From positions 1 to 42,654 of the forward strand of contig JAADFU010000014.1 of assembly GCA_013152715.1 (NCBI GenBank): a stretch of DNA of 42,654 nt, in the 5' to 3' direction. Below the pieces are notes generated by a model. The model was given only the letters and a program-made list of their open reading frames with translations, did not search any database and had not been told where the DNA came from. Of the stretch, positions 285-34,019 are shown one piece after another; position 1 is the first letter of the stretch; every line of letters starts with the position of its first letter. The stretch is from Calditrichota bacterium. GTDB lineage: Bacteria > Zhuqueibacterota > Zhuqueibacteria > Thermofontimicrobiales > Thermofontimicrobiaceae. The translations under genes and the position numbers were made by a program.

Positions 285-2396
285 TCACTTAATATTCACC
301 ATCAACCACAACAAGAGAATAATCACACCGACGATAAGCCAACTCCCGCCAAAGCCGATGTAGTCCATTTTTGACGGTTTTAGAATTTCCCAATGAGAAC
401 CAGGAACAATTTTATTTTTTTCATATTTCTCCGGATGCTCGTATGCGTCCTGCAAAGCTTTTTCTTCTTCTTCAGGAGTTGCGCCGACCGGCGTGTGAAT
501 TTTTGCGAAGAATCGATCCAGGTCTTTTTTGGGAACCATCGGTGTCATGTACGAAAACAAAAACAGTAGCACAAATGGGAACAGTGCGTCAAATAAAAAG
601 CGCATCGCTACCAGTTGCGGTTTGGTGAAACTGGAAAAATCTATGCCGAACCAACTCAAAACCCAGATTTCTGCGTTGAAGCGGCCTATTCCCATTTTTT
701 GCGAATTGGGATCTTCGGGATTGACGCGAGCGACTTTTTCAAAGAAAATCCCGACCGGCGGAATCGTGTGCTCTTTTTGAATCTTTTCGCCAATATCTTG
801 CGCAAAATTCTGTTCGACATCCTCTTTAAGCGCGTCGGTCGTAATGGTCACCACGCGCGGATTTGTTTCTTGCAAATATTTCGGATTGTATCTGACAGAA
901 TCCATCCCCTGAAACAAATTGGGAATGACGGCATAAATCATCAACGTGATGAAAACCTGTAAAATTACCGCCCATCTTGTCAGGCGTCGCCAGATGAAAC
1001 CAAGCCAGATCGACGCGCCGAAAATAGCCGGGATGGAAATGATATATTTGAACAATTCCAGCAAATTGTCAACCATCATGGCAACGACGATGCCACCCAA
1101 AAGAGTGACGCCAATGGTAATTCGTCCCACAAAAAGGTAATGCGCTTCAGATTTATTTGGCACTAATGGCTTGTAAATATTGCGGATAAACAAAGCAGAA
1201 TAGGACACTGCCCCGGCATCAAGGCTGGACATATTCGCGGCCAAAATCCCCACTAACATCAATCCGATCGCTCCGGGGACGAGCAAGTCTTTCGACATGT
1301 AACCCCAGATCAAATCAGGGTCGCTGAGTTTGCCGCTGTAAAGTCCGATGGCAAGCAATCCTGCCAACGCCCAGAAAAGCATAATTAGTCTTTTCCCAAA
1401 CATCCCGCCAATCATCCCGACCCGCGCTGTCATTTCATTTGTCGCAGAACCCGCGGTCTGCATTCCGGTGGCGACGGCGACTATGGACACCAGATTTGCC
1501 AGCACCATGGCGACAATGGTGTACCAAGCGTACTCACTCATCGTTGCCGATCCGAACAACTCAAACATGTAATTCGGAACCGAAGCGTGCAATCCGGCAA
1601 AACCGCCAATTTTGACCAGCCCAATGGGGATGAGCAATAATGAGAAAATCAGAATCAACACCCCCTGAATGGCGTCAGTGATCGCGGCGGCGCGGAATCC
1701 CCCTAACATGGTGTAAATTCCCACGATGAGCGCGTAAATGAAGTAAAACCAGTATTGATTTGTGTGAGAAATAAACGAGTGAAGCTCGCCTTTTTTATTC
1801 TTTTCCACCAGTTCTTCATACCGCGCCCGCTTTTCCACTGACAGCGCATCGTTCTGATCCAATTCTTGCTTCAACGTTTTGAATTCCTGAAATTCTTCGA
1901 TACTGCGACGCTCTTCAACGGAACATTGTTCGATTGTTTTTGGAGTCATTGCCATCATCGTTTTTGCGGCAACCATGTAGCCAATTCCGCCGCCGATGAG
2001 AGAAAGCAGCAGCACAAAGATGGCGTAGCTTCCGCCGAGAAATTTGCTTCTGAATCGCTCCGTAAAATAATCTCCAATTGTGGTCAACCGTACGCGGCGA
2101 AAAAACAGCGTGGTAAACCAGTAAAACGGCGTCAAGAACAGCACTAAGAATTGAATCCACATGCCGCCGATTCCCTGACGGTAAATTTCCCGGGAAACGG
2201 CAACTGCCTGATCCGCGTTCGTGGAGCAACCAAAATTCAAAAAAAGCTGATAAAATTTACCTAATTTTCTTCCGGCGAGGAAAAAATCTTCCGTATCCTT
2301 GGTCTGGTTTGACACGCGTTTTCCCAGCCAGATAACCACGCCGACGTACGCAATAACGATCGCCAAATCTAATATGTGCAAACCCCAAATGTGCAT
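285..2396 (-). CDS. Sodium:solute symporter family (SSS/SLC5) transporter
   Basis: This is an inner-membrane sodium-coupled symporter, probably for a sugar or related solute. The 703-residue product has many hydrophobic helices and the early FFLAGR motif (about residues 38-43) typical of the family. The segment ANMSSLDAGAVSYS (about 387-400), followed by RNIY, matches the helix that carries sodium-site Ser residues in SLC5 proteins. A highly charged stretch of about 60 residues (151-213) interrupts the helices and is longer than usual. A second soluble insert lies at about 500-580, and the C-terminus ends in one more helix. The ATG is preceded by GAGGAG about 7 nt upstream. The substrate cannot be told from sequence; nearby glycosidases make a sugar plausible. 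Confidence 0.9.
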   Translation of the reverse strand: MHIWGLHILDLAIVIAYVGVVIWLGKRVSNQTKDTEDFFLAGRKLGKFYQLFLNFGCSTNADQAVAVSREIYRQGIGGMWIQFLVLFLTPFYWFTTLFFRRVRLTTIGDYFTERFRSKFLGGSYAIFVLLLSLIGGGIGYMVAAKTMMAMTPKTIEQCSVEERRSIEEFQEFKTLKQELDQNDALSVEKRARYEELVEKNKKGELHSFISHTNQYWFYFIYALIVGIYTMLGGFRAAAITDAIQGVLILIFSLLLIPIGLVKIGGFAGLHASVPNYMFELFGSATMSEYAWYTIVAMVLANLVSIVAVATGMQTAGSATNEMTARVGMIGGMFGKRLIMLFWALAGLLAIGLYSGKLSDPDLIWGYMSKDLLVPGAIGLMLVGILAANMSSLDAGAVSYSALFIRNIYKPLVPNKSEAHYLFVGRITIGVTLLGGIVVAMMVDNLLELFKYIISIPAIFGASIWLGFIWRRLTRWAVILQVFITLMIYAVIPNLFQGMDSVRYNPKYLQETNPRVVTITTDALKEDVEQNFAQDIGEKIQKEHTIPPVGIFFEKVARVNPEDPNSQKMGIGRFNAEIWVLSWFGIDFSSFTKPQLVAMRFLFDALFPFVLLFLFSYMTPMVPKKDLDRFFAKIHTPVGATPEEEEKALQDAYEHPEKYEKNKIVPGSHWEILKPSKMDYIGFGGSWLIVGVIILLLWLMVNIK

Positions 2397-2707
2397 TTCA
2401 AATCTCCTCTAATCTTTATGCTTCATTTTCCTTGCTGTACCACTCCGATTTTTGCAGCTATTTTATTTGGGTATTTGAAAAAATACAGAACGCATTTTTT
2501 AAGGAGGAGGAACGACGATTTCTAATCAAGAATATTTCGAGGAGCGGCTTTTATTTTCAGGAGAAAAATATGAGCATCCTCAAAGTGTAGCGCAGGTCGA
2601 TCCTCGCTCACGATTTACAGAGCGGTTCATCTTCTTTTCTGTTTTACATATTTTCAATTTTGTCGCCGTGGAAATTTGTCAGCGCGCCCCGACAAAAACG
2701 AAATAAA
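2397..2707. other. 311-bp intergenic region with no confident gene
   Basis: This separates the GWxTD gene from the symporter gene. I see no tRNA, clear terminator or convincing promoter. A purine-rich tract, AAGGAGGAGGAACG, lies on the plus strand near 2501-2514. The plus-strand frame after it stays open to about 2706 but has no ATG, GTG or TTG start placed to use that tract. A weak 6-bp inverted repeat (TTTGTC/GACAAA) around a GC-rich loop lies near 2678-2698. The symporter is probably expressed from a promoter in this gap, but I cannot place it. Confidence 0.4.
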
Positions 2708-4135
2708 TCATTTCAGTCGAGCGTACATATCGCGCCAATCTTCCTGCTGAACTTCATCCGGATGAGTCGAATGAACTAACATGTAGTCGCCAATTTGGCG
2801 GAAATCCACAAAATAAAAATTAACGCCTCCCAACAAATTATAGTAGTGCCAAATTTGATAGGCTTTATGGGAATTATCTGCCGGGAATCTCTCAACCTCA
2901 TCGGGTTTACCGTAAACCAACAAAACCCGACCTCTGTCCGTCTTCCAACCGGCTTTTTGGCCAATGGTAAATTTCTGTTCTGCGTAATGCAATAGTCGGA
3001 GATATTGCGCTTTTCTTTCGTTTATTTTTGTTCGAGGTTCTGGATCGCGGCGTGCCCAAAACTCGTTAAGAAAATTAATTTTTCCGTTTCGATCAAGCTT
3101 TTTGAATATTTTTTTCTCATCTTTTAACGCGATATATTTTATTTTTTCAAAATAAACATCGAGTGATTTTTCATCCATGTCTTTGAATTCATTAATACTT
3201 ACCTGATTTTTTTGAATCGGCTTCGGTGCTGTTTTTACAATAAAATCTTCCGGCTTGTAAATGGAAAAATTCTTTTTTGAAACTGCTTTGCCGCCGTCAG
3301 CGTCATCGATTACTTCGATGTAAAATGTGTAAAAACCGCTAATTAGACCGGTCAAATCAAATGATCCATGAATGACAGCGGAAGATCCCGGCTTTTGTCG
3401 AACTGAACCTTCTACCTGTTTCACAATATTTTCATTTGGGTCTTTGATAAAATAGGTGGTGCGGAAAGTTGATTCTTTTTTATCCGGCTGAAATTTCAAA
3501 TTATAAATTTCCGCATAATAAAACAATTTTGAAAAGCCGGTGCCATACGCTAACGAAGCATTCGGCATGATGCGCAGTCCGCATTTATCAAATTTATTCT
3601 CCGCTTTCGGCTGTGAAGTGATGCGAGATGCCAATTGAACATCGCTCATCGTCAAATTTTCTGCGCTGAAAGGCGCCAACTTTAGCGATTGGGAGTCCAC
3701 AACCGACTTTTTCGAAACAAGATCAGTCAATCGAGAGAACAGTGTGTATTCGCCCGGATTCAGCCGAATATTTGTCTGCTCGGTAAATTTTTGCGTTGCG
3801 GAAATTTCAGTCAACGATTGAATAAAATCAGTTATCACCAAACTATCGACTCGCATCGCTTTGCCGCCTTTTTGAATGTAAGTCTGCAGCAAACAACCAG
3901 CCTGGAAACCATCTTTCGTGCTCCGGTAGGTCAAACCTTCGCGCAAAAAAGAGTAATAAATTTCCACATAAACGTCGCCCCCTTGCGTTTTGAAACGAGC
4001 AAAATCTGTTTTGAAATCGAATTTCTTTCCTTGCGGAAACGCCGCACCCGGAATTATCGCTGTCAAAAATACAACTAAAATCAGCATTACTTTCATTATT
4101 TTTTCAAAATAAACATATTGCCGGTAATTATTCAT
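2708..4135 (-). CDS. GWxTD domain-containing secreted protein
   Basis: This is a probable periplasmic or surface protein of the GWxTD family, whose function is unknown; it is common in FCB-type bacteria. The ATG at 4135 is chosen because GAGGA lies 6 nt upstream. A longer GTG-started reading to 4156 has no ribosome site. A start at ATG 4096 would give a tighter signal peptide but has a poor ribosome site. A hydrophobic export segment precedes AAFPQG near residue 35. The C-terminal family region has FWARRDPEPRT, then GWKTDRGRVLLVYGKPDEV with the name motif GWKTD near residues 396-400, and ends in aromatic-rich YQIWHYYN...FYFVD. The middle looks like beta-sandwich segments. It is the last gene of the lipoprotein/SGNH/MFS-fusion cluster, 156 bp after the gene before it. 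Confidence 0.85.
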   Translation of the reverse strand: MNNYRQYVYFEKIMKVMLILVVFLTAIIPGAAFPQGKKFDFKTDFARFKTQGGDVYVEIYYSFLREGLTYRSTKDGFQAGCLLQTYIQKGGKAMRVDSLVITDFIQSLTEISATQKFTEQTNIRLNPGEYTLFSRLTDLVSKKSVVDSQSLKLAPFSAENLTMSDVQLASRITSQPKAENKFDKCGLRIMPNASLAYGTGFSKLFYYAEIYNLKFQPDKKESTFRTTYFIKDPNENIVKQVEGSVRQKPGSSAVIHGSFDLTGLISGFYTFYIEVIDDADGGKAVSKKNFSIYKPEDFIVKTAPKPIQKNQVSINEFKDMDEKSLDVYFEKIKYIALKDEKKIFKKLDRNGKINFLNEFWARRDPEPRTKINERKAQYLRLLHYAEQKFTIGQKAGWKTDRGRVLLVYGKPDEVERFPADNSHKAYQIWHYYNLLGGVNFYFVDFRQIGDYMLVHSTHPDEVQQEDWRDMYARLK

Positions 4136-10107: not shown

Positions 10108-11166
10108 TTAGAATTTGAAAGTCAGTGAGAATCGATTGACGTCATCAAGAACGCTGAATGATGTCCAGGTATAATCGACGACCAGGCGATAATCACCATA
10201 AGGAATCTCCAAACCGGCGCCAATGGACATTCCTTCATCTGTACGATTGTAGCTTTGTTTGCTCAACCACGAAGGACGCGTTGTCGCTTCAGTCGGATAA
10301 TAAACATCACGATTCAGATATTCATCCTTGACACTCTGAAAGTTAAATTTATATCCGCTGCGCACATACAATTTCTTGTACAGATGAGCTTCAATACCAC
10401 CGAGAACCATCTGGTCGCTATCCAGAGGTTTGGTCGCATCCAGATAGCCTTTGAGACCAAACAGGTCAGAATTGATGAAGCTGTACGACGCTCCAAAGCT
10501 AAAGACCAGCGGTAGGTTGACCGGGACATAATAATATTCATAATCCTGTCCCAGATTCTGGATTCTGGCGCCAATTGTCAGGTCTCTGAAGCCAACTTTG
10601 TAAATTGCTCCAAAGTCCATGGCAAATGCGCCGACTCCGACGCCGTCAATAGTTTCACTGTAGTACTTCGCAGTTGCGCCCAAAGCCAGTTTGTCGGTAA
10701 AATTACGCGCCCAACTCAATGCAAAAAAGTTTGCATTGTAGTCGAATGTAGCAGAAGTCACGTAATCAACGCCTTCCAGCCCCGGCTGGATGTCACGGTT
10801 TGCTGTAATGCCGCTTACGCCTGACATCATGCCGCCAAGTGCAAAAGTACCCCAATTACCGAACGAATGACCCACTGCAAAAGCGTTATGGTTCAAGCCG
10901 GCAATCCAGTCGTTGTAAGAGAATGTCACTTGAGTTTCCCCAGCACTCAGTACAATACCTGCCGGGTTCCAAAACAATTGATTGACATCGCCCTGTACCG
11001 TTGTCATTGCGCTGGCTAAAGCAGTTGCTTTTGCGCCAACCGCAACTTTCAGAATTGAGGCACCTGACGAACCAGTTTTTTTCATCTCTTGTCCAAACCC
11101 GCTACCCACAACTATGATCAGCGTCAAGATGAGTAGCGTGGAGATTATTTTATGTCTCATAAACAT
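10108..11166 (-). CDS. PorV/PorQ family outer-membrane beta-barrel protein (first copy)
   Basis: This is a 352-residue outer-membrane protein of the PorV/PorQ family. In type-IX-secreting bacteria PorV is the shuttle that takes folded substrates from the Sov translocon to the attachment complex; PorQ-like paralogues have less clear roles. An N-terminal signal (ending GSGFGQ) precedes the family's opening segment, with KVAVGAKATALASAM near residues 40-54 and WNPAGI near 66-71. Alternating strand patterns run to a terminal SLTFKF. The ATG at 11166 has GGAGA only 2 nt upstream; the second ATG at 11160 has better spacing (8 nt) and may be the real start. It sits last in a unit with a TonB receptor and a tailed secreted protein, so it is likely specialised for that cargo. 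Confidence 0.85.
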   Translation of the reverse strand: MFMRHKIISTLLILTLIIVVGSGFGQEMKKTGSSGASILKVAVGAKATALASAMTTVQGDVNQLFWNPAGIVLSAGETQVTFSYNDWIAGLNHNAFAVGHSFGNWGTFALGGMMSGVSGITANRDIQPGLEGVDYVTSATFDYNANFFALSWARNFTDKLALGATAKYYSETIDGVGVGAFAMDFGAIYKVGFRDLTIGARIQNLGQDYEYYYVPVNLPLVFSFGASYSFINSDLFGLKGYLDATKPLDSDQMVLGGIEAHLYKKLYVRSGYKFNFQSVKDEYLNRDVYYPTEATTRPSWLSKQSYNRTDEGMSIGAGLEIPYGDYRLVVDYTWTSFSVLDDVNRFSLTFKF

Positions 11167-13785: not shown

Positions 13786-16740
13786 TTAGAAAGAGACCTC
13801 AAAGCCAACGTACATCTCTCGCGCGATACCGGTCAACGGACTTCCGTACTGATCCACCGGACGATTTAAAATGCCATAGGGATTTCCTTCGGTCTCATAA
13901 AGGTTGCTGTTTCCGTAGTTATCGAAGTGCAGAACATTTTCGCGATCAAATACATTCAAGATCTCGAGAAATAAACCGCCACGGATTCCAGCAACTGTCA
14001 TGTACTTGGTCAGACGCATGTCGAGCTGAAAGAAATATTCTCCATTTAACATTTTTTCGTAGCGCTGGTTTGTAATATTGGTTTGTTGTCTATAGCGCCA
14101 GGGGCTTCTGTAAGTCGCCATAGTTGACATTTTGACGTCAAACGGGAAATCCCACAATAGTGACAATTTGCCTTTCCAGTCGTTATAACCGCGTGCATAA
14201 GTCGGCCAGAAACCAACAACGTCCCAGTTGTATGGCGTCTTATTTTTGTAACTGATTGAATTAGTAAATTCAGGATCCTGGTTAATATTGCCAGCATTGG
14301 CTGAAGCTTTATCATAAGCATAAGATATGCTTAAATTTCCGGAAAGACCGAATACGCCAAAATACCTTTCAGCAGTCGGGCGTTTCCAGAAATTGAGTTC
14401 CAAACCACGGCTGTCACGGTAACCCCAATTACTGTAGTAAGTGTACAACGAAAAATCAGTTCCGGTCGCCTTTTTATCCTGACCAATGCTCCAGCCAGTG
14501 GCGCTTCCATTTCTGACATCACGATAGTACGCAGTCACGTCAACGCCGAAATCGTTCGTCAAAGCAACATTAACGCCAATCTCGTACGCGGTCGCTTTTT
14601 CGGGATCCGGATCGGAATTCCATACTGCCGGTAGAGATGCATTTGCGAATGAGTTGTAGTTTCTCAACCAGTAACCAAGATTCGGTTGTGTGGTGTAAAT
14701 ACCCCAGCTATAATGCATAGCGGCATTGTCAGTAATCGGATGAGAAATACCAATACGGGGACTGAAGTATTGGCGGGTCTTGCTGTTTTTGGTGTTAGCA
14801 TAATCCATAATGGCCTGGCCATTAGCAAGAGTGTCGAATTTTACCGGTTCAAGGAAATTATCGAGCACTTTTGTATCCATGTTGTAAGCGTCGAATCGCA
14901 GGCCGAGATTAACGATAATGCCTTCATATTCGATCTTATCCTGGATAAACGTGCCAAATGACCAAGGATTGACGGTGTAATCAACAGTCTCAAACTTGAA
15001 AGCCGGATCGGGGAAACCGACACTCGATTTGTGCGAAAATTCATCGACAGTGTTCAGTTTGTATTCCACACCTGTTTTCAACTGATGATGAAAACTCACC
15101 TGATTTGTGTAGTTTGAAGCAAATGTAAGAGTGCTGGTTTTCAGATTTTCATAATGATAACCTGCCAACCCAAATCGAATCTGATTCTGGAAACCGGATA
15201 CCTGATAGCTCGGATCGTTTCCGGGAGATGTGTTAAAAATACGTGTTGCCGGATCATTCAGGTAATAATTCGCTTTTTCAGCAGTATCCAAAATAATCCA
15301 ATCACCGTAGTTGTCATATTGCAACTTGTCATCAACCGGTTTGTATCCCCATGTTTTCTCGTTTCCAACGTAACTAAGTGTTGTTTCAAGAAAACTGGAG
15401 GGATTAAATGTATGGGTATGTTTCAGATACGAGACGAATCCGGAACGGTCCCATACCGGCTGTCCTTCAAGCCAGAATTGATATACGTAAGAATAGGAAC
15501 GGTTAGTCCAGCCAAACAATTGGCCCCAGTCATCCAACTTTCCATAAGCGGTAACTCTGTCGGATTCTGACAAGTCGTAATTCAACTTTAATGACAGGCC
15601 AAGCTCTCTCTGAAATTGACCCGGGTAAGCGCCATGATCATTCAAGAAATTCCCGGCAAAGAAAAAATTGCCTTTTGCAGTCATGGGCCCGCCAAATGTA
15701 AATTCAGAATTCATACGGGGTTTGTCGCCATATTCATAAGCACCAGGCGTCCACTGCATTAAAGCAGCCAGATCATCATTCCCGTTAGCGATTAAGTTTT
15801 GTTTATGCGCGTTGTAAAGATCAGCGGCTGTTTCATTTCCCGAAACAATAGCATTATAGCAATCAGGACCTTTGTGCTTTATGCCGCCTAAACTTGAACG
15901 CACGAACAACTTGCCTGAATATTGTTTTCCCCCGCTTTTAGAAGCAATGTTAATCACACCAGCAGAGGCGCTATACTCAGCGTTAAATGTACCAGCAATG
16001 ACGTTTGCTTCAGCAACACTACTCTGTGTGATTTCAGCAGTCGTCTGAACCATTGCTGAGGAGCGACCTTTTGGATCAACGCTGGACTCTGCTTGAAAAT
16101 CACCAGTGCTTGATCCCATTGGGTTCGTATTGCGTATTACGTTTGTGTACGCATCTGTGCCGCCGCCCGTAGAAGACATAATATCAGTGATGTTTACACC
16201 ATCGATCATGTAAGCAACACCAGTTTTGTTCGCTCCACGCATAGACTGTGTCGTCACAGAAGTTTCGAGGATCTCATTTAATGTATTCACTGGCAATACA
16301 TTATCAACCACCTCGTCGGAAAAAGTAATCTTCGTTGCAGTCATGGTTTTATCCACTGCCGGACGTTTCGCGACGACAGTAACCGTTTCTCCCTCTACAA
16401 CGGTTTCTTTTAGCTGTACATCGAGAGGTGTAGTCACATCCAATTGCGCTTTGACATTTTCAATCTTCTCAGTGGTATAACCCATAAAACTGACGCTGAG
16501 AGTATAGGTGCCAGGAGGGACATTCAAGATAAAATATCTTCCGTTTTCATCTGCCGCAGCGCCCATTGCAGTGCCTACAATCTGAATCTGAGCACCTGGC
16601 AGCGGATCTCCTGTCTTCGCATCCGTAATTTTGCCGGCTATTTTGCCGAGACCGGCAAACGCAGACACGGAGAATAACAGTACCATCACCAGGCCTATAG
16701 TACACACTATAGACATTTTGTGCAAAATTTTCATTGACAT
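13786..16740 (-). CDS. TonB-dependent receptor with carboxypeptidase-regulatory-like N-domain (first copy)
   Basis: This is a 984-residue outer-membrane active transporter of SusC/CirA type. A signal peptide (1-29) is followed by a carboxypeptidase-D regulatory-like beta-sandwich (about 30-112; GKITDAKTGDPLPGAQIQI and GRYFILNVPPGTY). The plug domain (about 130-270) contains AYMIDGVNITD and TFNAEYSASAGVINI. The plug carries an extra loop of about 50 residues (188-238) absent from the second receptor in the window. The rest is beta-barrel, ending YVGFEVSF with a terminal Phe. The ATG at 16740 has GGAGG 7 nt upstream. The substrate is unknown; neighbours suggest an oligosaccharide. No SusD-like gene follows; the next genes encode a tailed secreted protein and a PorV-like protein. 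Confidence 0.92.
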   Translation of the reverse strand: MSMKILHKMSIVCTIGLVMVLLFSVSAFAGLGKIAGKITDAKTGDPLPGAQIQIVGTAMGAAADENGRYFILNVPPGTYTLSVSFMGYTTEKIENVKAQLDVTTPLDVQLKETVVEGETVTVVAKRPAVDKTMTATKITFSDEVVDNVLPVNTLNEILETSVTTQSMRGANKTGVAYMIDGVNITDIMSSTGGGTDAYTNVIRNTNPMGSSTGDFQAESSVDPKGRSSAMVQTTAEITQSSVAEANVIAGTFNAEYSASAGVINIASKSGGKQYSGKLFVRSSLGGIKHKGPDCYNAIVSGNETAADLYNAHKQNLIANGNDDLAALMQWTPGAYEYGDKPRMNSEFTFGGPMTAKGNFFFAGNFLNDHGAYPGQFQRELGLSLKLNYDLSESDRVTAYGKLDDWGQLFGWTNRSYSYVYQFWLEGQPVWDRSGFVSYLKHTHTFNPSSFLETTLSYVGNEKTWGYKPVDDKLQYDNYGDWIILDTAEKANYYLNDPATRIFNTSPGNDPSYQVSGFQNQIRFGLAGYHYENLKTSTLTFASNYTNQVSFHHQLKTGVEYKLNTVDEFSHKSSVGFPDPAFKFETVDYTVNPWSFGTFIQDKIEYEGIIVNLGLRFDAYNMDTKVLDNFLEPVKFDTLANGQAIMDYANTKNSKTRQYFSPRIGISHPITDNAAMHYSWGIYTTQPNLGYWLRNYNSFANASLPAVWNSDPDPEKATAYEIGVNVALTNDFGVDVTAYYRDVRNGSATGWSIGQDKKATGTDFSLYTYYSNWGYRDSRGLELNFWKRPTAERYFGVFGLSGNLSISYAYDKASANAGNINQDPEFTNSISYKNKTPYNWDVVGFWPTYARGYNDWKGKLSLLWDFPFDVKMSTMATYRSPWRYRQQTNITNQRYEKMLNGEYFFQLDMRLTKYMTVAGIRGGLFLEILNVFDRENVLHFDNYGNSNLYETEGNPYGILNRPVDQYGSPLTGIAREMYVGFEVSF

Positions 16741-17343: not shown

Positions 17344-18387
17344 TTACTCACATTCTCCATTAAATGAATTATTCATATGATGGCAAACCAATTTTGTATC
17401 AATAAATACATGTTTCGGTGGCTCTTCTTTTTCCCCTGTTTCAACTAAATCGACAATCATTTCCACCGATTTTGTACCCATTTCATAAGGCTTTTGATCC
17501 ACAGTAATGAAAGGCACACCCAGGCGATGAACGATATTATTATCTCCAAACTCACCCAATTTTACATCATCGGGGATGGAAAGCCCTGCTTCCAAAATTG
17601 CCTTTCCTGCTCCGTACGCCAGCAACCCACTGATAGTAATTGCAGCGTCAAAATGGTGGCCGCTATTGAGCAAACGTTTCATGCGAACATAAGCATCGTC
17701 GATATTGATGCCGCACTCGATGACATACTCGGGATCATAAGGAATATTGTGTTTTTTCAATGCCTCCTGATAGCCCTCAAATCTTCCCTTGGCGACAAAC
17801 AAGTCATGCGTCGGTCCCAAAAAGGTAATTTTTCGACAGCCCTGCTCGATCAACTTTTCCATTAAAATAAAAGAAGCCTGTTTATCGTCGATTGTTACTG
17901 AAGAAAAGTCTTTCCCGTCAATGACTCGGTCGAAACAAACAAATGGAATACCCCGATCTTCGATGGATTCGATAACCGTATTGTTCTCCACGCCGGGAAC
18001 TGCCGCAATTAAAATTCCATCCACATTTAAAGATGATAAAAACCCCAAATTTCTTCTTTCAATGATTGAACTTTCATCGTGTAACATGATAATCGCTTCA
18101 TATCCCAAAGAACGAGCGCGATCAGAAATACCTCTGGTGACTTCAGCAAAAAATGAATGGGCGAGATTGGGAATAATGACTCCGATGATGTTGCTCCGAC
18201 GTCTGATTAAACTTCGCGCTAATAAATTCGGTTGGTAACCAAGTTCCTTTGCTTTTTGTTTTACTCGTTCCCGCGTTTTCAGCGAGATATCAGAACTATC
18301 ACGCAACGCTTTGGAAATCGTCGCAGGTGTTAAGTTAAGAATTTTCGCCAGCGTTTTTAGAGTCACCGGCTTTTTTTTACTTTTCAT
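17344..18387 (-). CDS. LacI-family transcriptional regulator (first copy)
   Basis: This is a 347-residue sugar-responsive repressor. The N-terminal helix-turn-helix (about 8-55) includes TLKTLAKILNLTPATISKAL and the hinge segment YQPNLLARSL. The periplasmic-binding-protein-like effector domain starts at NIIGVIIPNLAHSFFAEV (about 66) and includes VDGILIAAVPG and a C-terminal FITVDQKPYEMG. The start at 18387 lacks a strong SD. A sigma70-like promoter (18506-18533) and a 28-bp palindromic operator (18476-18503) lie directly upstream, so it probably represses itself. It sits between the ABC-permease end of the large operon and the first TonB unit and may control either. The effector is unknown; an oligosaccharide is likely. 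Confidence 0.92.
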   Translation of the reverse strand: MKSKKKPVTLKTLAKILNLTPATISKALRDSSDISLKTRERVKQKAKELGYQPNLLARSLIRRRSNIIGVIIPNLAHSFFAEVTRGISDRARSLGYEAIIMLHDESSIIERRNLGFLSSLNVDGILIAAVPGVENNTVIESIEDRGIPFVCFDRVIDGKDFSSVTIDDKQASFILMEKLIEQGCRKITFLGPTHDLFVAKGRFEGYQEALKKHNIPYDPEYVIECGINIDDAYVRMKRLLNSGHHFDAAITISGLLAYGAGKAILEAGLSIPDDVKLGEFGDNNIVHRLGVPFITVDQKPYEMGTKSVEMIVDLVETGEKEEPPKHVFIDTKLVCHHMNNSFNGECE

Positions 18388-19560: not shown

Positions 19561-21972
19561 TCAATCCCGTCTGGTGATTAATTTTAAATTCAAATAAGTC
19601 AAAATAAACAACAAAATGAACAGCAAATAGGCGATGGCAGAAGCCTCTCCCATTTTGAAATATTCAAAACCTTTGCGATAAAGAAAAGGCACAATGGTCA
19701 TGCCGGAATCATCAGGGCCAAATTTGGACTCTGCCTCGCCGGCTCCGCCGCCGAGCATGTAAATTTGTTCAAAAACCTGAATCGCGCCAATCGTTCCCAT
19801 GATGACTAGAAAAGTGAGCTGTGGTTTCAAATTTGGCAGACTGATGTAAAAAAATTGCCGAAGAGGCCCGGCGCCGTCAATGGCGGATGCCTCGTAAAGT
19901 TCTTTGTTCACATTTTGCAAACCGGCTAAGAAAATCAAAATCGCAAACGCCAGCCCCTGCCAGATGGACATCACAATCACACTATTGAGGAAAAGGGCTT
20001 TGTCCTTCAGGAACCGTACCGGATCTTTAACGATTTCCAGTTTCAAAAGCAGGGTATTAATCCAGCCGTAATTTGTCCCGGCGTAAAGCGCAAACCAGAT
20101 CAAACTCACTGAAACAACAGAAGTGACCAACGGCGAAAAATACATAAACTTGTACAGCCGGTCAGGGATGAGATTTTTATCCAGACACGCTGCCAGAATA
20201 ACGGCAATGAACAACTGAATGGGCAACACGAGCAGTGCAAAATACAGAGACCTGCCGAGGCTACCCCAGAGCTCAGGGCTTTTCAAAATCAAAATATAAT
20301 TTTCCAATCCCACCCAGTGCGCATGACTCAGCGGGATCACCGGATTGTATTTTGTGAAACTCAAATACAACGATACCAAAATGGGAATAAAAATGAAAAC
20401 AAGTGCCGAAATCACCGGCGGTGCAATGTACAGGTATGAATTGAATGATTTTCTTGTATCCCGCGAACCGAAAATGAATCCCAGAAAAACGGCAATTATT
20501 CCGATAACGATTGCCTTGGCATAATCCAGAATATCCCAGCCATCGCCGGATTGAATGATTTTTTCCAGACGTTTGCCAAAATATTTGTAATAATCGCTTC
20601 GCTCCCGATCTAATTTTTTCTGCGCGATGGCAGCAGAAGCGGACAGAACCTCGCGGCAGGTTTGTTGAAGAAATTTTTGAAAATTTTCCTTTTCTTTCCT
20701 GAACTCTCCTCTGGCAAAAGCAACTTTCAAATCAAAAACGCTCAAATTTTGGGCGTCAGCTACTTTTTTTAAATAATTTTCCAGTTTCTCTCTCACCTTG
20801 TAAAAGCTCTGTTCCAGAATCCGATCCGACTCCTTTGTCCAGGGATAGCCGGGAAAAGATTTCAGTCGCTGATAAACTTCGTGGAATAATTCCTGATGCC
20901 CGGGCAGCATTCCCAGATCTTCTTTCCAGAAATCCTGATTCACAGACAGAAGCATTTGTGAACGCTCGCCTAAATTTGCCAGAGCGCGATATTGCGCGAG
21001 CTGCGCTTCTTCGGACATGAGAAATTCAATCCATTTCATGGCATCATCAGGATTTTTCGCGTCACGAAAAATGACCAGAGTCCTGCCGCCCATTATCGTG
21101 GCCGGGACGCCATCGTCAGCCTGAGGGAAAGGGAAAAAGCCAAATTTATCTTTCAAATGCGGCGAACGAATGATGATTTCGCCGTATCGCAAATCATAGT
21201 CAAAAAATAACGGCAGCGCCTTTTCCGGATCGCGCAGAGACATCAGCTCCACTGGTTTTTCGTAAATTAAATTGTAGGAATTCCACAGATTGATGGCAAA
21301 ACTGTATCCTTTGAGGAAATTCGGAGACGTCCAATTCACTTTTGTGCCGTTTTCTTCGTACACCAGCTCTCCGTAGGGCCAGATGTAGGTTCCGATTCCC
21401 CAGTGCGCATTTCGCGTCCAGAGGAATCCGTACTGATAGCGATGAGCCGTCAGAACATCCAATACATGAATTAGCTCGGACCAGGTTTTTGGCGGCTGTA
21501 AGCCAAGTTTTTGGAAAATATCTTTTCGGTAAAATCCAACCAGCGCCGTGGCATTGGAGGGGATTCCGAATAAATGTCCCTGAAAATAGCAGGTGGGCCA
21601 CATATCAGGAAAAATCTTTTCTTTCAAACGAGAAATTGCCTCAGGATAAGCTTTTTCCAGATCGATCACACCGCCAACTTTGCCGTAGTCCAGCGGCGCG
21701 GACAAATTGCTGGTGCCAGCGTCCGGGGGATCTCCGGAAGCCATGGCAGTCAAATATTTGGTAGCAAAATTTCCCCAGGGAATAGGTTGCACGTGCACGC
21801 GAATGCCGCTTCGTTGATAAAAAATGTCGGCAATTTTCTGCATCACCGCGGCTTCATCGTGCGTACCGACGCTCCAGAAATTGACGAAATGTTCCTCCCG
21901 GGCAATCCCTGCGCCGTGAGCAAAAACGAGGTAACTAAAAAAGAAGAAAAATAGAAAAGATTTTCTTTTCAT
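19561..21972 (-). CDS. Fusion of extracellular sugar-binding protein (family 1) and MalF-like ABC permease
   Basis: One 803-residue frame holds two normally separate parts. After a signal peptide (about 1-24), residues 27-400 look like a family-1 solute-binding protein: NFWSVGTHDEAAVMQKIAD, then YLTAMASGDPPDAG, FYRKDIFQKLGLQPPKTWSEL and a late DAMKWIEFLMSEEAQ. A charged linker (about 400-480) leads to an extra membrane helix (about 483-502). A MalF-type permease follows (about 515-803) with an EAA loop EASAIDGAGPLRQFFYISLP (695-714). The extra helix would let an outside binding domain connect to a permease that starts inside. There is no frameshift between the parts. It lies 14 bp after the GH5 lipoprotein gene. 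Each membrane complex would carry its own receptor. Confidence 0.9.
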   Translation of the reverse strand: MKRKSFLFFFFFSYLVFAHGAGIAREEHFVNFWSVGTHDEAAVMQKIADIFYQRSGIRVHVQPIPWGNFATKYLTAMASGDPPDAGTSNLSAPLDYGKVGGVIDLEKAYPEAISRLKEKIFPDMWPTCYFQGHLFGIPSNATALVGFYRKDIFQKLGLQPPKTWSELIHVLDVLTAHRYQYGFLWTRNAHWGIGTYIWPYGELVYEENGTKVNWTSPNFLKGYSFAINLWNSYNLIYEKPVELMSLRDPEKALPLFFDYDLRYGEIIIRSPHLKDKFGFFPFPQADDGVPATIMGGRTLVIFRDAKNPDDAMKWIEFLMSEEAQLAQYRALANLGERSQMLLSVNQDFWKEDLGMLPGHQELFHEVYQRLKSFPGYPWTKESDRILEQSFYKVREKLENYLKKVADAQNLSVFDLKVAFARGEFRKEKENFQKFLQQTCREVLSASAAIAQKKLDRERSDYYKYFGKRLEKIIQSGDGWDILDYAKAIVIGIIAVFLGFIFGSRDTRKSFNSYLYIAPPVISALVFIFIPILVSLYLSFTKYNPVIPLSHAHWVGLENYILILKSPELWGSLGRSLYFALLVLPIQLFIAVILAACLDKNLIPDRLYKFMYFSPLVTSVVSVSLIWFALYAGTNYGWINTLLLKLEIVKDPVRFLKDKALFLNSVIVMSIWQGLAFAILIFLAGLQNVNKELYEASAIDGAGPLRQFFYISLPNLKPQLTFLVIMGTIGAIQVFEQIYMLGGGAGEAESKFGPDDSGMTIVPFLYRKGFEYFKMGEASAIAYLLFILLFILTYLNLKLITRRD

Positions 21973-21986
21973 CGAAAATTCATTAT

Positions 21987-23213
21987 TTACGGCTTCAAAG
22001 TTGAAAAGGTTGAATCGTTAGTTTCGGTCACAAAACCAAGATCATCTGTTGATTGAATTTTGAAGTGATAAGTTGTGTCAGCTAATAAATTTGTCAATTT
22101 CATCGTATGCACCGTGAGAAAAATTGGCGCATACACGGAATCTGTGTATTGTTCGGTCAGGCCATAGAGTACGCGAGAATCGGATTCTAATTTTGTCTTC
22201 CAATAAATTGTCGCCCGATCTGATGAAATGAATTGCACCTGTACGTCGAAAATCTGATTGGAGTACTCTTCCGGTGAAGCATATCTCTGCAGATAGCTGC
22301 GAACTAACGCGCCGAATTCTGTTGGCGTCACATGATCGTCCTGCGTGAGATGGGGATCATCGACCCAGCTCCAGGCAGTCCAGCCAATTTTCTTTTGTCG
22401 AAGATAAGTGATCAATTCTTTCCCCCAATCCAGATGCTCGGCATAGCCGCCAAATTCACCAACAAACATGGGCAGTTGTTCGGAGTAATTCCCAAATTTC
22501 TGTCCCCAGCTATTTTTGTTTCCCATCCAGGGATAGACATGAACACTGTAAACAATATTCGAATAAGGCAACGGATTTTTCGCCCACTCGCTGATATCAG
22601 AAGCCCAGTTCAGACCGGACACCAAAATCAGCGCTCTGTGATGGACGGACTGAATGGCTTCGATGATTTCGCTGGCTCGTGCACGCCATTGCGAAATTCC
22701 GACATCGTGAGCCTCGTTGTGGATGTCATACAACACAGCAGGTTCATCTTTGTACCGCTCCGCTAACTGTTTCCACATGTCAATTGCAGCGCTGTCCGGA
22801 ATTGGTGGAATTCTCACCTGCGTGTTTTGCCATTGCAAATCTAAAAGTACGTAGGCGCCCAAACTTTTTATCCAATCAATGACCTGATCCAGTTTGGAAG
22901 AATAGGCTTCGTCATTCAAAACCCAGTCTTCGTTGAAAGGCAAACGAATTATTTTTGCTCCCCAATCCTGAATGATGTATTGGAATTCTCCCTGACTCAT
23001 GCGATTGCCATTTTTATCATATTCCAGTCCGGAACGATTGACGCCGTAGAGCAAAACCTGTTCGCCGTTTTCATCGATAATTTTATTTCCTGAGACGCTG
23101 AGCCACGATAAATTTGAAGAAGGGCCTGGCTGGGTAGGAGTATTCTTTTCTTCTTTGCTGCAAAAAACAAGCACAGAAAATAGAATGACAAAAATCGCAA
23201 TCAATCGTTTCAT
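21987..23213 (-). CDS. GH5-family (cellulase-like) lipoprotein with C-terminal Fn3-like domain
   Basis: This is a 408-residue glycoside hydrolase, probably cutting a beta-1,4-linked glucan or mannan oligosaccharide. A lipoprotein signal ends LVFC with Cys18, so it is membrane anchored. The TIM barrel spans about 35-310. The acid/base motif is YDIHNEAH with Glu167; the nucleophile motif is FVGEFGGY with Glu253. A substrate-platform Trp segment, WTAWSWVDDP, lies near 278-287. The last 85 residues look like a fibronectin-III domain (ATIYWKT...DTTYHFKIQSTDDLG). It sits between the ADP-ribosylglycohydrolase-family gene and the fused transporter, fitting release of sugars for import. Exact substrate unknown. 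Confidence 0.9.
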   Translation of the reverse strand: MKRLIAIFVILFSVLVFCSKEEKNTPTQPGPSSNLSWLSVSGNKIIDENGEQVLLYGVNRSGLEYDKNGNRMSQGEFQYIIQDWGAKIIRLPFNEDWVLNDEAYSSKLDQVIDWIKSLGAYVLLDLQWQNTQVRIPPIPDSAAIDMWKQLAERYKDEPAVLYDIHNEAHDVGISQWRARASEIIEAIQSVHHRALILVSGLNWASDISEWAKNPLPYSNIVYSVHVYPWMGNKNSWGQKFGNYSEQLPMFVGEFGGYAEHLDWGKELITYLRQKKIGWTAWSWVDDPHLTQDDHVTPTEFGALVRSYLQRYASPEEYSNQIFDVQVQFISSDRATIYWKTKLESDSRVLYGLTEQYTDSVYAPIFLTVHTMKLTNLLADTTYHFKIQSTDDLGFVTETNDSTFSTLKP

Positions 23214-23238: not shown

Positions 23239-24579
23239 TTAAAAAACATCAGATGAAAACTCGACTCTTTTATCCGTAGAAATACGGCTCAAGCCTTCAG
23301 CCAACTCATGAAAATCAACTCGATTCGCCCGAGAGACTACTTCCATCCATTTTTGTGGAATGGTTTTCATTCCGTAAGCCGCGCCGCCAAAAAGCGCTGC
23401 CAGAGAAGCCACCGTGTCGTTATCTCTGCCGTAATTGACGCCAAATTCGATCAACCATTTTAAATCCTGCGGCGAGTAATCCATTATCGCCAACGCGACT
23501 GGCAACATTTCGCCTATGGTGCACATTATTTCTTCCCCCACGGCAAATCGATCGTAAAGCGCGCTGGCAAAAGGCGCGAAATTTTCTTTATTCGCTTCTG
23601 TCTCACGGCTTCGGAATCGATGGCTGAGCATAATCGCCGTAATAATTTTTTGATCCAAATCGGACAGCTCGTGCGTTTTTTCCGCACCAAGATAAAATTC
23701 CAAACCAAATTCCTGGATTTCCAGAATCAATTCGGGCCAACTTTTTCCCCCCAGCAAATCAGATAAAATCGCTGCGGCAGTTGCGGCATAGATCGGCGCT
23801 TCTCCGATATCGAAAAAATCAATTTCCCGAACAAATTTAAAACATCCCCTCGGGTCACCGGGAAAAAACACGCTCAAAGGCGGCAAAGTAATCAACCCCA
23901 GAGGCAAGACCTCTCCCCTGTCGTAACTGCTGTTGTTGAACTGACTTTTGAGATCGGTTTTCACCGTGTAAGGTTTGACAGGTTTACAAAACCAGGGCTC
24001 GCTGGTATATTCCCGGACCGCATTTCGCTCAGCCGGTGGGCTCAACAGTTTCGGCTTTTGCGGCACAAAAACAGAAGTCGCTGTTTTCGTAATTTCCCAC
24101 ATGAACCACAAATGTAAAAATTTTTCCCGCAACGAAACCGGTTGTTCCAGAAATTTAATGGAATTATCCTGCACCTGTTTTTCATAACTTATTCGTGCTT
24201 CCTGATATTCATCAAAGATGAACTGCGCCAGTGCCTTTCTTGTTAAAAAATCCGAGGCTGATTTTTTTGAATTTTCGATCATTGCTTGACAAACCAGCAG
24301 CCGCAGCCGGGTATCGTCAGTAAAAGTTCCGGCTTTGGCATGGCGGGAATACACATTCCAGTAATGTTGATACGCCGCAGGATAGACGGAAAAATCATCT
24401 ATCCAACCGCCTTCTTTTAAAAACCGACGCGATTTTTCAGTGTCCCGTCCCTCAAAAGGACCTGCCATTGCATCAGCAATCGCCGATGCCGCCAACATGG
24501 CCTCGATTCGTTCTCGTAGAGAAATTTTCCAATGTTGTTCTTCTAAATCCATCGTTGTCGTCCAAAAATTTTCCAGCAT
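23239..24579 (-). CDS. ADP-ribosylglycohydrolase-family (DraG/ARH-like) protein
   Basis: This is a 446-residue all-helical protein of the ARH/DraG fold. The N-terminal metal and substrate region is seen in AIADAMAGPFEG (33-44) and FTDDT (Thr87, Asp88, Asp89, Thr90). The C-terminal metal motif is GRDNDT (384-389). These Asp/Thr residues coordinate the two divalent metals in known members. A long middle segment (about 165-250) lies between the conserved parts. In a carbohydrate operon the likely role is N- or O-glycoside cleavage or removal of a sugar-like modification, rather than classic deADP-ribosylation; this is inference. It starts 6 bp after the isomerase stop. An internal ATG at 24552 is an alternative start with a slightly better upstream GGA. 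Confidence 0.85.
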   Translation of the reverse strand: MLENFWTTTMDLEEQHWKISLRERIEAMLAASAIADAMAGPFEGRDTEKSRRFLKEGGWIDDFSVYPAAYQHYWNVYSRHAKAGTFTDDTRLRLLVCQAMIENSKKSASDFLTRKALAQFIFDEYQEARISYEKQVQDNSIKFLEQPVSLREKFLHLWFMWEITKTATSVFVPQKPKLLSPPAERNAVREYTSEPWFCKPVKPYTVKTDLKSQFNNSSYDRGEVLPLGLITLPPLSVFFPGDPRGCFKFVREIDFFDIGEAPIYAATAAAILSDLLGGKSWPELILEIQEFGLEFYLGAEKTHELSDLDQKIITAIMLSHRFRSRETEANKENFAPFASALYDRFAVGEEIMCTIGEMLPVALAIMDYSPQDLKWLIEFGVNYGRDNDTVASLAALFGGAAYGMKTIPQKWMEVVSRANRVDFHELAEGLSRISTDKRVEFSSDVF

Positions 24580-29900: not shown

Positions 29901-30941
29901 CTAAAATGAAAAAATCATGGAAAATTTATTCGCGTAATTGAATCTGCCGTAATCGATGGCAGCGTAATCCAGATTCAGTCCGAATTGCGCAACTTTAAAC
30001 TGCAGACCAAAGCCAAACGTCAAGCCTCCTTCGGCATCCTGCAAAAATAACTGCCTGTAACCGGCGCGCATTGCAATAAAATTGTGAAATTGATATTCTC
30101 CGCCGACATTCAAATATTCTTTATTATCGTTGGGATGGATGGCGTCCACCGCAACAATCAAATTGTGGTTCCGCACGCCGAAAAAATCCTGTGCAATGTC
30201 TGCGGAAATTCCTACGCGGAAGAAAATAGGCAGCGGAAACTGGTCCGTTGTTAAATCGGCATTAATCGTCGCATTATTTCCCGCATTCACCGGATCGATA
30301 TCGTGCTGCACCAAAAGATCGCGGCCGCTCATTCTCATGCCGCTGCCAAAATTAGAGATGGACATGCCCAGTTTAATATTTTTAAAAATAGTGTCGTACA
30401 AAATTCCCATATCCACCGCCATTCCCGAAGCATGAGAATGCCACAAAGTTTCGCGAATGTATTTCGCAGATCCGCCGATGGAAAAACGGTCTGTCAGAGC
30501 GCGGGCGAAACTCATTCCCATGGCAATAAATGAAGCAGAAACCATCTCTCCGGTGCCGTCTTGTTCGGAAAGCGTCGTTCTTTCGATATCCGGAGCGCCA
30601 AGATGCGTAAATTGAAATCCAACCGTTCCCACGCCGGGCAAACGCAGCGCAATACCAGCGAAATCGAAACTCAAACCGGCGATGTAATCGTAATGGTTGA
30701 AAAGAAACTGACTTCTATTCAGAAAACCAAGCCCGCCAGCGTTCCAGTAAAGGGCTGTCGCATCAGTGGCTTGAGTCACGTAAGCTTCTCCCATCGCCAG
30801 AGCGCGCGCTCCCACGCCGATTTTCAAAAACGGCGCGGCAGTGGTACCAACACGACTCACTGTTTGTGCCTCCAACCCCTGGCTGAATAAGGCGAAAAGA
30901 CTGAAAATGACAATCAATGTGGTTAGATATTTCATATTCAC
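29901..30941 (-). CDS. PorV/PorQ family outer-membrane beta-barrel protein (second copy)
   Basis: This is a 346-residue PorV/PorQ-type protein. After a signal peptide ending EAQ come FLKIGVGARALAMGEAYV (about 38-55) and YWNAGGL (about 65-71), equivalent to the KVAVGAKATALASAM and WNPAGI segments of the first copy. A strand-rich barrel follows, ending KFSMIFSF. The ATG has GAGG 5 nt upstream. It lies 60 bp after the TonB receptor and 84 bp before the 1219-residue secreted protein. By analogy with PorV it may deliver that cargo, or other tailed enzymes of the operon, to the surface; the exact role of such paralogues is not established. Confidence 0.87.
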   Translation of the reverse strand: MNMKYLTTLIVIFSLFALFSQGLEAQTVSRVGTTAAPFLKIGVGARALAMGEAYVTQATDATALYWNAGGLGFLNRSQFLFNHYDYIAGLSFDFAGIALRLPGVGTVGFQFTHLGAPDIERTTLSEQDGTGEMVSASFIAMGMSFARALTDRFSIGGSAKYIRETLWHSHASGMAVDMGILYDTIFKNIKLGMSISNFGSGMRMSGRDLLVQHDIDPVNAGNNATINADLTTDQFPLPIFFRVGISADIAQDFFGVRNHNLIVAVDAIHPNDNKEYLNVGGEYQFHNFIAMRAGYRQLFLQDAEGGLTFGFGLQFKVAQFGLNLDYAAIDYGRFNYANKFSMIFSF

Positions 30942-31001: not shown

Positions 31002-34000
31002 TTACAAACCGACTCCGATTCCCAATTGAATGAAGCGCGGGGGATAATAATTTCCGGGACGTGTGTAATATTCTTTGACATCAGAAATTTCCACGTCCAA
31101 CCCGGCGTTACGATCTTCCTGAGTACGGGAAGCAAAAGTAACATCGGGTCTGCCTGTATCCGAGTAAACAGTACGCGCATTCCGCGTATCCAGTAAATTG
31201 TAAACATTGAGCATCAAATCATAATTCATTCCGAATAATTTTACCCGCCGCGAGATGCGCAAATCAATCGTGAAAGTCGTGGGTCGCACTTCACTATTCA
31301 CTTTCAGCTCGCTCAAAGTCGTCCCGCCGACTGTTTCGCCGCGATAAAAACTCGGCGTGTAAGGGAATCCGGAATTCAAAGATGCTACCATGCTCGCATT
31401 CCAGCCATTTTTTTGGTAACCAAATGTCGCATTCAAAGTATGCCGCTGATCCCAATCCAGATTGATCAACTGAATGCGCGGTTCTTTGTTGTCGCGAATC
31501 TGCGTGTACGCTTCCTGCGGATTGGAGTAAGTACCCTTGGCAATCATAAAAGTGTAATCCAAATTGACGGAGAAATCGGACAGAGCAAATTGCGAGTTAA
31601 AAGTAATTCCTTTTACCGCCGCGTGATCGTAATTAATATATTTGTGGTAAGTCGTGCCCCAGTAAGTATCGATCGGCGCGCTAATGCCGACCCAATCACG
31701 AATGTCGCGATAAAATCCGGTCACGTTCAAAAACAGCCGATCCCACAGACCCTGTTGCAAACCAACTTCGTACATAACGGTCCGCTCGGGTCCGATGTCC
31801 GCATTTCCGATGAGCGGATTGACATTTGCCTTTTTTACGTCGACCCAGAATTTTGGGTTTTCGTACAAATAGCGCAATTCCGGATTCTGGAAAAACCAGC
31901 CATAAGAAAAATGAATCACGCCTTGCGATGTGATGGGAAAAGAAATGCCGAAACGCGGACTGAGCTGATATTTGGGTTTGGGTTTTTTGTACCAGAATTG
32001 CTCCCGTTCTTCAAGCGTGTATTCCGGCCCCCACTGATCTTCCGGTAAATTGGGATCGTAATTTTTGTAACGATGCGCGTTTTTCACCGGATCGAGAATT
32101 TCCGGATCAGCAGGATCAGCAAGCGTTTTTCCGTCCGAATCAAAATAATCGAACCGTAAACCCAAATTGATGATTAATTCCTGAAATTCAATTTTATCCT
32201 GCACATAGGCAGAAAACTCGCGCGGTTTGTAATGATAATTTTGCGAAAATGCTGAAGAATCCGGATCCGGAATGTAAGGCCTGTAAGTCGTTTGATCAAA
32301 TTGAAGCGTGTATGCCTCGTTGTACAAATCATGAAAAATTCCGCCAAATCCCCATTTCATCAAATGACGATTTGTCACCTGACTGGTCATGTCCCACTTG
32401 AAAGACCAATGCTTGACTTTATTCTTCCAGCGCTGCACATCGTTGCCAAAATAGACAAAATCACTGTTGTTCAATTGCACGGAAACCCACTTATTATTTC
32501 GCCGATCAAACACGTATTGCTCGAAATCCGCTCGTTTGGTCGGCATGTAACGATAATCGTAAGGATCGTCGTAAAGTTCTCCATGATAGTCTTTCTGGAA
32601 ATAGCTGATTTTCAGTTCGTAAAAGGTTTTCGGCGACAAAGTATGATTTAATGAAAAAACATGGGTTTGACTCAAATTATGATGAATCTTTGTCGCATCA
32701 GGAACATATTTGTAGCGATTACTGGCGTCGCGATTACGACGCTTACTCAAATAAAGGCCGTAGCTGAAGTTCATCGACGCCACGGGTCTAAAATACAATT
32801 TCGACTGCAACGAATATTGCTCTGCCCAACTTAACGGCATTAATTTGTCATCCGGCTTTTTGAACGTGTGCACCGTATCCTTCGCCGGGCTGGAAAACCC
32901 CCAGGGCATGAAATAGCGTTTGCCATAAGTGTAGTCAGGATCGTAATAATACCTGCCGGAAATAAAATAGGTTACCCGCTTTTTTGTCCAGGGGATGGGA
33001 CCGCTTGTGTTGAACTGCAAGTCCGTATTGGTGAGCGGATTGAATGTGTTGAGATAACCTTTCTTTTTCAAATAAGGCTTATCTTTAATGACAGAGGAAG
33101 ATTGAAAATCATACTCGCCGGAATTCAAATAATTCAAATCTTCCTCGAAAAATTGATTGGTCAGGCGGTGCGCGGCAAATCGCGCCCAGGCCGGATTGTC
33201 CATGACGTAATAGGTCTTGTCATCGAAACTCAGAAAATCCCCCAGGTAGCCGATAAAATTAAAACGGTAATCGTCACTCCCCTGCTTCGTAACAATGTTG
33301 ATAACTCCGGAGAGCGCTTGTCCGTACTCAGCATTGAAAGTCCCGGTGATCGCCTGCAATTCCTGCACTGCCTGATTGTCAATAGAAATTCCTGCCTGTC
33401 GATTGAGCGGATCGATCACCTGAATGCCGTCAACCAGATACACGATTTCCGTGCTTCTGCCGCCGCGGATGTGGAGTTGGCCTCCGGCATCGCGAACCAC
33501 GCCTGCCTGCAGTTCCAGCACATCACTGACTTCTCGCACCGGCAATGATTGCAACTGATCTGCGCTCACGGAAACCGCCGACGAAGTCAAATCTTTTCTT
33601 ATCCGTTCACGCTTTGCAGTGACAACAACTTCTTCGCCCAATTCCAGCGTCACTTGCGACAACTGAAAATCCAGTCGCGTGGTGTAATCCGCCGAAATTC
33701 GCACTGGTTTGCGCACCTGTTTTTCGTAACCCATGTAGCTCGCTTCCACGATGTACTGCCCCGGCGGCAAATTCAAAATATAAAATTCGCCGTTGAGATC
33801 AGTGGCGGCGCCTTTGACTTGTTCAACCGGGAAACGAACTTCCTTCCCATCGCGCACCATGCCGACGACAACCACATTCCCGCCGGGCAGCGGTTCCCCG
33901 GTTTGCTTGTCAATCAATCGACCGGCAATTTTTCCGGTGATGCCGGCGTAAGAGATATTTTGAAAAACAGTCGCAAAAAACAAAGTAACGAGAAATAGCC

Positions 34001-34019
34001 ACAAATACTTTCGTAACAT
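31002..34019 (-). CDS. TonB-dependent receptor with carboxypeptidase-regulatory-like N-domain (second copy)
   Basis: This is a 1005-residue outer-membrane transporter. A signal peptide (1-25) leads into a regulatory-like beta-sandwich (about 28-122; GRLIDKQTGEPLPGGNVVVV, then EFYILNLPPGQY). The plug (about 143-246) carries LHIRGGRSTEIVYLVDGIQV and TFNAEYGQALSGVINIVTKQG, both strong family signatures. The remaining barrel ends RFIQLGIGVGL. GAGGAGG lies 5 nt before the ATG. It starts 20 bp after the stop of the secreted GH5-like enzyme, consistent with one operon. Substrate is inferred to be an oligosaccharide released by that enzyme. No SusD-like protein is found next to it. Confidence 0.93.
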   Translation of the reverse strand: MLRKYLWLFLVTLFFATVFQNISYAGITGKIAGRLIDKQTGEPLPGGNVVVVGMVRDGKEVRFPVEQVKGAATDLNGEFYILNLPPGQYIVEASYMGYEKQVRKPVRISADYTTRLDFQLSQVTLELGEEVVVTAKRERIRKDLTSSAVSVSADQLQSLPVREVSDVLELQAGVVRDAGGQLHIRGGRSTEIVYLVDGIQVIDPLNRQAGISIDNQAVQELQAITGTFNAEYGQALSGVINIVTKQGSDDYRFNFIGYLGDFLSFDDKTYYVMDNPAWARFAAHRLTNQFFEEDLNYLNSGEYDFQSSSVIKDKPYLKKKGYLNTFNPLTNTDLQFNTSGPIPWTKKRVTYFISGRYYYDPDYTYGKRYFMPWGFSSPAKDTVHTFKKPDDKLMPLSWAEQYSLQSKLYFRPVASMNFSYGLYLSKRRNRDASNRYKYVPDATKIHHNLSQTHVFSLNHTLSPKTFYELKISYFQKDYHGELYDDPYDYRYMPTKRADFEQYVFDRRNNKWVSVQLNNSDFVYFGNDVQRWKNKVKHWSFKWDMTSQVTNRHLMKWGFGGIFHDLYNEAYTLQFDQTTYRPYIPDPDSSAFSQNYHYKPREFSAYVQDKIEFQELIINLGLRFDYFDSDGKTLADPADPEILDPVKNAHRYKNYDPNLPEDQWGPEYTLEEREQFWYKKPKPKYQLSPRFGISFPITSQGVIHFSYGWFFQNPELRYLYENPKFWVDVKKANVNPLIGNADIGPERTVMYEVGLQQGLWDRLFLNVTGFYRDIRDWVGISAPIDTYWGTTYHKYINYDHAAVKGITFNSQFALSDFSVNLDYTFMIAKGTYSNPQEAYTQIRDNKEPRIQLINLDWDQRHTLNATFGYQKNGWNASMVASLNSGFPYTPSFYRGETVGGTTLSELKVNSEVRPTTFTIDLRISRRVKLFGMNYDLMLNVYNLLDTRNARTVYSDTGRPDVTFASRTQEDRNAGLDVEISDVKEYYTRPGNYYPPRFIQLGIGVGL

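Follow-up and report, generated by a model that had tools for sequence, protein, structure and literature searches.

A solute-binding protein fused to a MalF-type permease in a putative CUT1 sugar importer, and its relatives within one phylum

Introduction

Most CUT1 importers are split, with the solute-binding protein (SBP) and the permeases made as separate chains. One importer with a MalE-MalF fusion reportedly comes from Bdellovibrio bacteriovorus. It is a maltose/maltodextrin ABC importer characterised by Licht et al. (2019, Res Microbiol 170:1-12, PMID 30193862; cited in PMC7756565, PMC9045158, and PMC7060353), and the review passage that cites this work calls MalE fused to MalF transport-competent (PMC7756565). 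On account of that statement, the SBP-fused CUT1 design is already known, and the kind is not new. In other ABC families, GlnPQ (for glutamine) and OpuA (for glycine betaine) have the binding domain covalently joined to the permease, and the passages concerned give two binding domains in tandem for GlnPQ (PMC8025302) and two for OpuA (PMC11065425).

Here we describe a fusion gene in the window, by which we mean the whole 42,654-nucleotide stretch of DNA that was analysed. As in the MalE-MalF importer, judged by the title under which it is cited, the system is of the CUT1 type and a single solute-binding domain sits on the MalF-type subunit, the two being encoded by one ORF. Unlike that importer, as far as the citing sources describe it, the present one belongs to a different lineage, lies in a likely mannan and not a maltodextrin context, has a UgpA-like permease, and has its probable ATPase outside the locus. 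It resembles GlnPQ and OpuA in the covalent joining, but here a single SBP is carried by one member of a MalF/MalG pair, and the permease is a CUT1 permease with a dissimilar partner gene, not one of the polar amino-acid or osmolyte kind. With MalEFGK2 and UgpBAEC it shares a family-1 SBP, two dissimilar permeases with EAA loops, and probably a MalK-type ATPase; in those systems, however, the SBP is separate, and the split CUT1 permeases examined have no extra helix ahead of the permease. The MMSYN1_0195-type fusion (NF043073) likewise unites a permease with a binding protein in a single chain, within a related importer family, but it is of the polyamine family and matched only weakly, to the MalG partner. 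A preliminary description of this DNA had suggested that a CUT1 case is new beside GlnPQ and OpuA. This view has to be given up, since the MalE-MalF maltose importer is cited as already characterised (PMID 30193862) and the phylum studied here has many fusions of this sort. What the present locus adds is the likely mannan context, the UgpA-like permease, the apparently repeated fusion within one phylum, and the constant extra helix.

Results and Discussion

The features of the fusion gene and of its immediate neighbours are collected in Table 1.

Table 1. Positions in the window of the fusion gene, its parts, and the adjoining genes
Feature	Position	Strand	Evidence
SBP-permease fusion gene, 803 aa	19561..21972	minus	single ORF; Pfam; orthologous fusions L053, L027, L054
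Signal peptide region, residues 1-24 (MKRKSFLFFFFFSYLVFAHGAGIA), without lipobox Cys	21901..21972	minus	hydrophobic segment 6-24; sequence reading
Family-1 solute-binding domain, core residues 41-324	21001..21852	minus	PF01547; phmmer
Charged linker of about residues 385-480, mostly helical by prediction	20533..20820	minus	composition; low-confidence AF2
Extra transmembrane helix, residues 485-503	20464..20520	minus	hydropathy 2.24
UgpA/MalF-type permease domain, residues 507-800	19573..20454	minus	NF007852; phmmer
EAA (coupling) loop, residues 693-717, YEASAIDGAGPLRQFFYISLPNLKP	19822..19896	minus	orthologue alignment
MalG-type partner permease, 281 aa	18712..19557	minus	PF00528 E=3e-22; UgpE E=5e-39
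LacI-family regulator, downstream of transporter genes	17344..18387	minus	PF00356; PF00532
GH5 secreted glycosidase, directly upstream of fusion	21987..23213	minus	PF00150 E=2e-36

The frame begins with ATG and, as the preliminary description had read it, is uninterrupted by a stop codon; that description named no strand, and the gene lies on the minus strand. SBP_bac_1 (PF01547) matched the binding domain with E=2e-30 and 107 bits, the cut-off being 26, and phmmer aligned the N-terminal part with solved sugar-binding proteins, the best being 5ysb (E=1e-25, residues 26-388). On the same protein, BPD_transp_1 matched residues 588-797, also above its cut-off (E=2e-12); UgpA (NF007852) was the best NCBIfam match to the C-terminal part (E=1e-28), and phmmer related this part to the CUT1 permeases 7cad, SugA, and MalF. 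Apart from the segments in the signal peptide and the extra helix, hydropathy analysis gave six hydrophobic segments that match those of a CUT1 permease, starting at residues 520, 579, 615, 665, 719, and 778. Within the EAA loop, E694, A695, D699, G700, A701, P713, and P717 are invariant in the orthologues. The proposed order of exported SBP, charged linker, extra helix, and MalF-like permease with its EAA loop is thus confirmed. The MalG-type gene, whose UgpE-like product is the second, dissimilar permease with an EAA loop, begins three bases past the stop codon of the fusion. Scans for promoters and terminators gave signals near the shuffled expectation.

Between the two domains, residues 385-483 contain 20 K/R and 16 D/E. 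The AF2 model places linker helices at 380-407, 412-420, and 425-474, with low confidence; it is a poor model of the fusion (mean pLDDT 41, pTM 0.30, from an alignment of three sequences) and gives the explanation below no structural support. All complete fusions have a hydrophobic helix immediately ahead of permease helix 1, and the split permeases examined lack it. Cytoplasmic loops tend to be net positive (the positive-inside rule), and the stretch from the extra helix to permease helix 1, GSRDTRKSFNS, reads as net positive, which fits the cytoplasmic side. Since the SBP must be outside and the N terminus of the permease inside, one extra helix would solve the topology of the chain. The recurrence of the helix in every complete fusion checked supports this proposal, which had been made from the present gene.

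We consider it highly probable that these genes encode a CUT1-type importer in which one of the two permease halves permanently carries the SBP through an extra helix, with a MalG partner, a shared single ATPase, one binding domain, and beta-manno-oligosaccharide as the likely cargo. The signal peptide would direct the binding domain to the periplasm, where the long, charged, helical linker would tether it to the extra helix; this helix would return the chain to the cytoplasm, so that the N terminus of the MalF-type permease lies inside. The fusion would assemble with the neighbouring MalG-type subunit and two copies of a single, unlinked MalK/MsmX-type ATPase. Because there would be one fused subunit per MalF/MalG heterodimer, each transporter should have one tethered binding domain, and docking within the molecule would replace the steps by which a free binding protein diffuses and docks. 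Such tethering fixes the receptor:transporter ratio and prevents loss of the receptor.

The genome has one OB_MalK match, in a 365-aa ATPase encoded at an unlinked site beside rho- and prfA-like genes, against three CUT1 permease systems (on contigs C14, C100, and C36). A single MalK-type ATPase therefore probably serves all three. The partnership is assigned from this single candidate in a draft genome that is 98% complete; sharing of an ATPase among importers is described for other bacteria in the passage cited (PMC11212667).

The surrounding genes bear on the substrate. A GH2 beta-mannosidase gene (E=1e-142) lies beside the orthologous fusion L027, and a GH130 beta-1,4-mannooligosaccharide phosphorylase gene (E=1e-126 to UhgbMP) beside L054; in the window itself, the GH5 protein encoded at 34040-35428 is closest to endo-mannanases. 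These genes suggest beta-manno-oligosaccharides, which we favour. The same mechanism could carry beta-glucan oligosaccharides or another sugar, because the GH5 glycosidase that adjoins the fusion has endoglucanases and a GH5 beta-glycosidase as its nearest PDB entries and is less like mannanases. We regard such a cargo as rather unlikely, though worth keeping in mind, against the mannan-specific genes beside two orthologues and the mannanase-like gene in the window. The pair of GH5 and fusion genes also occurs in L053 (GH5 at 1905..3194), the window encodes a DUF5060/GH5 protein at 40159-42336, and GH130 genes are found on other contigs of the same genome. One of the split CUT1 systems of this genome (L045, G000:C100) adjoins a GH130 gene (C100:5008-5859), so that mannan-type substrates may be served by importers of both designs, fused and split.

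The importer is flanked by TonB-receptor-like, PorV-like, and glycosidase-type proteins with type IX sorting tails (window 10108-11166, 13786-16740, 29901-30941, 31002-34019, 34040-35428, and 35932-38895), recognised mostly by eye and in part by Pfam matches. With these proteins around it, the neighbourhood looks like a larger polysaccharide-use region.

Would the binding domain stay attached? The length, charge, and probable exposure of the linker, together with its poorer alignment between orthologues than that of either domain, would fit cutting by a protease to give a free binding protein and a permease with one extra helix. Such cutting seems improbable to us: invariant linker positions are kept in the orthologues, the linker is predicted to be helical in the weak AF2 model, and the extra permease helix would be needless if a free SBP were wanted. 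It is less probable still that sensing, or the docking of other, free SBPs, is the main role of the attached domain, in place of service as the transporter's own receptor. SBP-fused transporters of another family can hold several binding domains, as stated for GlnPQ (PMC8025302), but the binding domain here retains a full-length family match, and no free SBP gene adjoins the fusion in the window, in L027, or in L054.

Related genomes were searched for the fusion gene. Full-length fusions were found in two of 60 of them, G006 (70% identity over 780 residues) and G030 (49%). A named genome collection added one in Bin_79R (40%) and contains the G006 sequence as MAG Prado141. When genome contigs were scanned with the alignment of the orthologues, no more than three loci came up, which leaves the named taxonomic range thin. 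The orthologous fusions (L053/L026 of G006/Prado141, L027 of G030, and L054 of Bin_79R) are about 69%, about 48%, and 40% identical to the present one; their alignments extend from the SBP through the linker and the extra helix to the permease and contain many invariant positions. Each is followed by a MalG gene, whose product is 80, 67, and 59% identical to that of the window in L053, L027, and L054, respectively. The gene order PPIase-GH5-fusion-MalG is common to the window and Prado141 except for one gene inserted in the window. An additional fragment at a contig edge in G080 is 58% identical to the permease end. We also noted that an ADP-ribosylglycohydrolase family gene (window 23239-24579) stands between the PPIase-like and GH5 genes and is absent from that place in L053.

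Domain scores, full-length fusions of 69-40% identity elsewhere, and conserved synteny together exclude chance. Split systems form the majority in CUT1, and the window is a single contig from a 211-contig draft, but an assembly or sequencing artefact, in which two adjacent genes were joined through loss of a stop codon or through a frameshift, is rejected with near certainty by the orthologous fusions, three other genomes sharing fusion, linker, and extra helix at 69-40% identity and many further genomes having similar fusions. Judged from these sequences, the SBP-permease fusion is a real gene, as had been proposed; in G006/Prado141, the nearest relative that has it, one gene is found and not the two that were thought to speak against it.

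Further loci of the same phylum were examined by ORF calling. At least 14 more distant single-ORF fusions were identified (L031, L034-L044, L049, and L050), all 14 with SBP_bac_1 and BPD_transp_1, and many split SBP/permease systems occur alongside them. Five other apparent fusions (L028, L029, L030, L032, and L033), seen as long open frames, were rejected when ORF calling resolved them into split SBP and permease genes. A maximum likelihood tree of 53 permease domains, which is unrooted and has long branches, placed the window, G006, G030, and Bin_79R in one clade (support 100/100); two further fusion clades, both well supported, and one fusion on its own stand apart from it. At least four changes of the fused or split label were required on this tree, and forcing all fusions into one group was rejected (delta lnL 164, AU p 2e-80). 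As the fusions form no single group among the permeases, the fusion probably arose more than once, and repeated fusion is likelier than repeated fission of an older fusion because most CUT1 systems are split. We lean towards the view that several separate fusions of SBP and MalF-type permease took place in this one uncultured phylum, each adding a helix ahead of the permease; tethering would then be a preferred, convergent design for its polysaccharide-degrading members.

Annotation that counts free binding proteins overlooks importers in this phylum. The presence of fused and split CUT1 importers side by side in the phylum, and in the present genome together with a single ATPase gene, offers a natural comparison for the effect of tethering on affinity and rate.

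Some variants were observed among the loci. In L051 (3399-5896), SBP and permease occupy two frames that overlap; this resembles a fusion broken by a frameshift, through assembly error or decay. L048 (2929-4881) and L052 (3635-5254) encode MalF-type permeases that have a non-SBP N-terminal region and are placed next to a fused clade in the tree. In L048 this region comprises about 360 residues with up to three hydrophobic segments and no Pfam match. MalG lies downstream of the permeases of this type, and no SBP-like gene was seen adjacent in L048. In the fusion of G010 (L043, 3253-5970), a series of similar repeats (IDSLGFKAFIDS-like) is inserted ahead of the linker.
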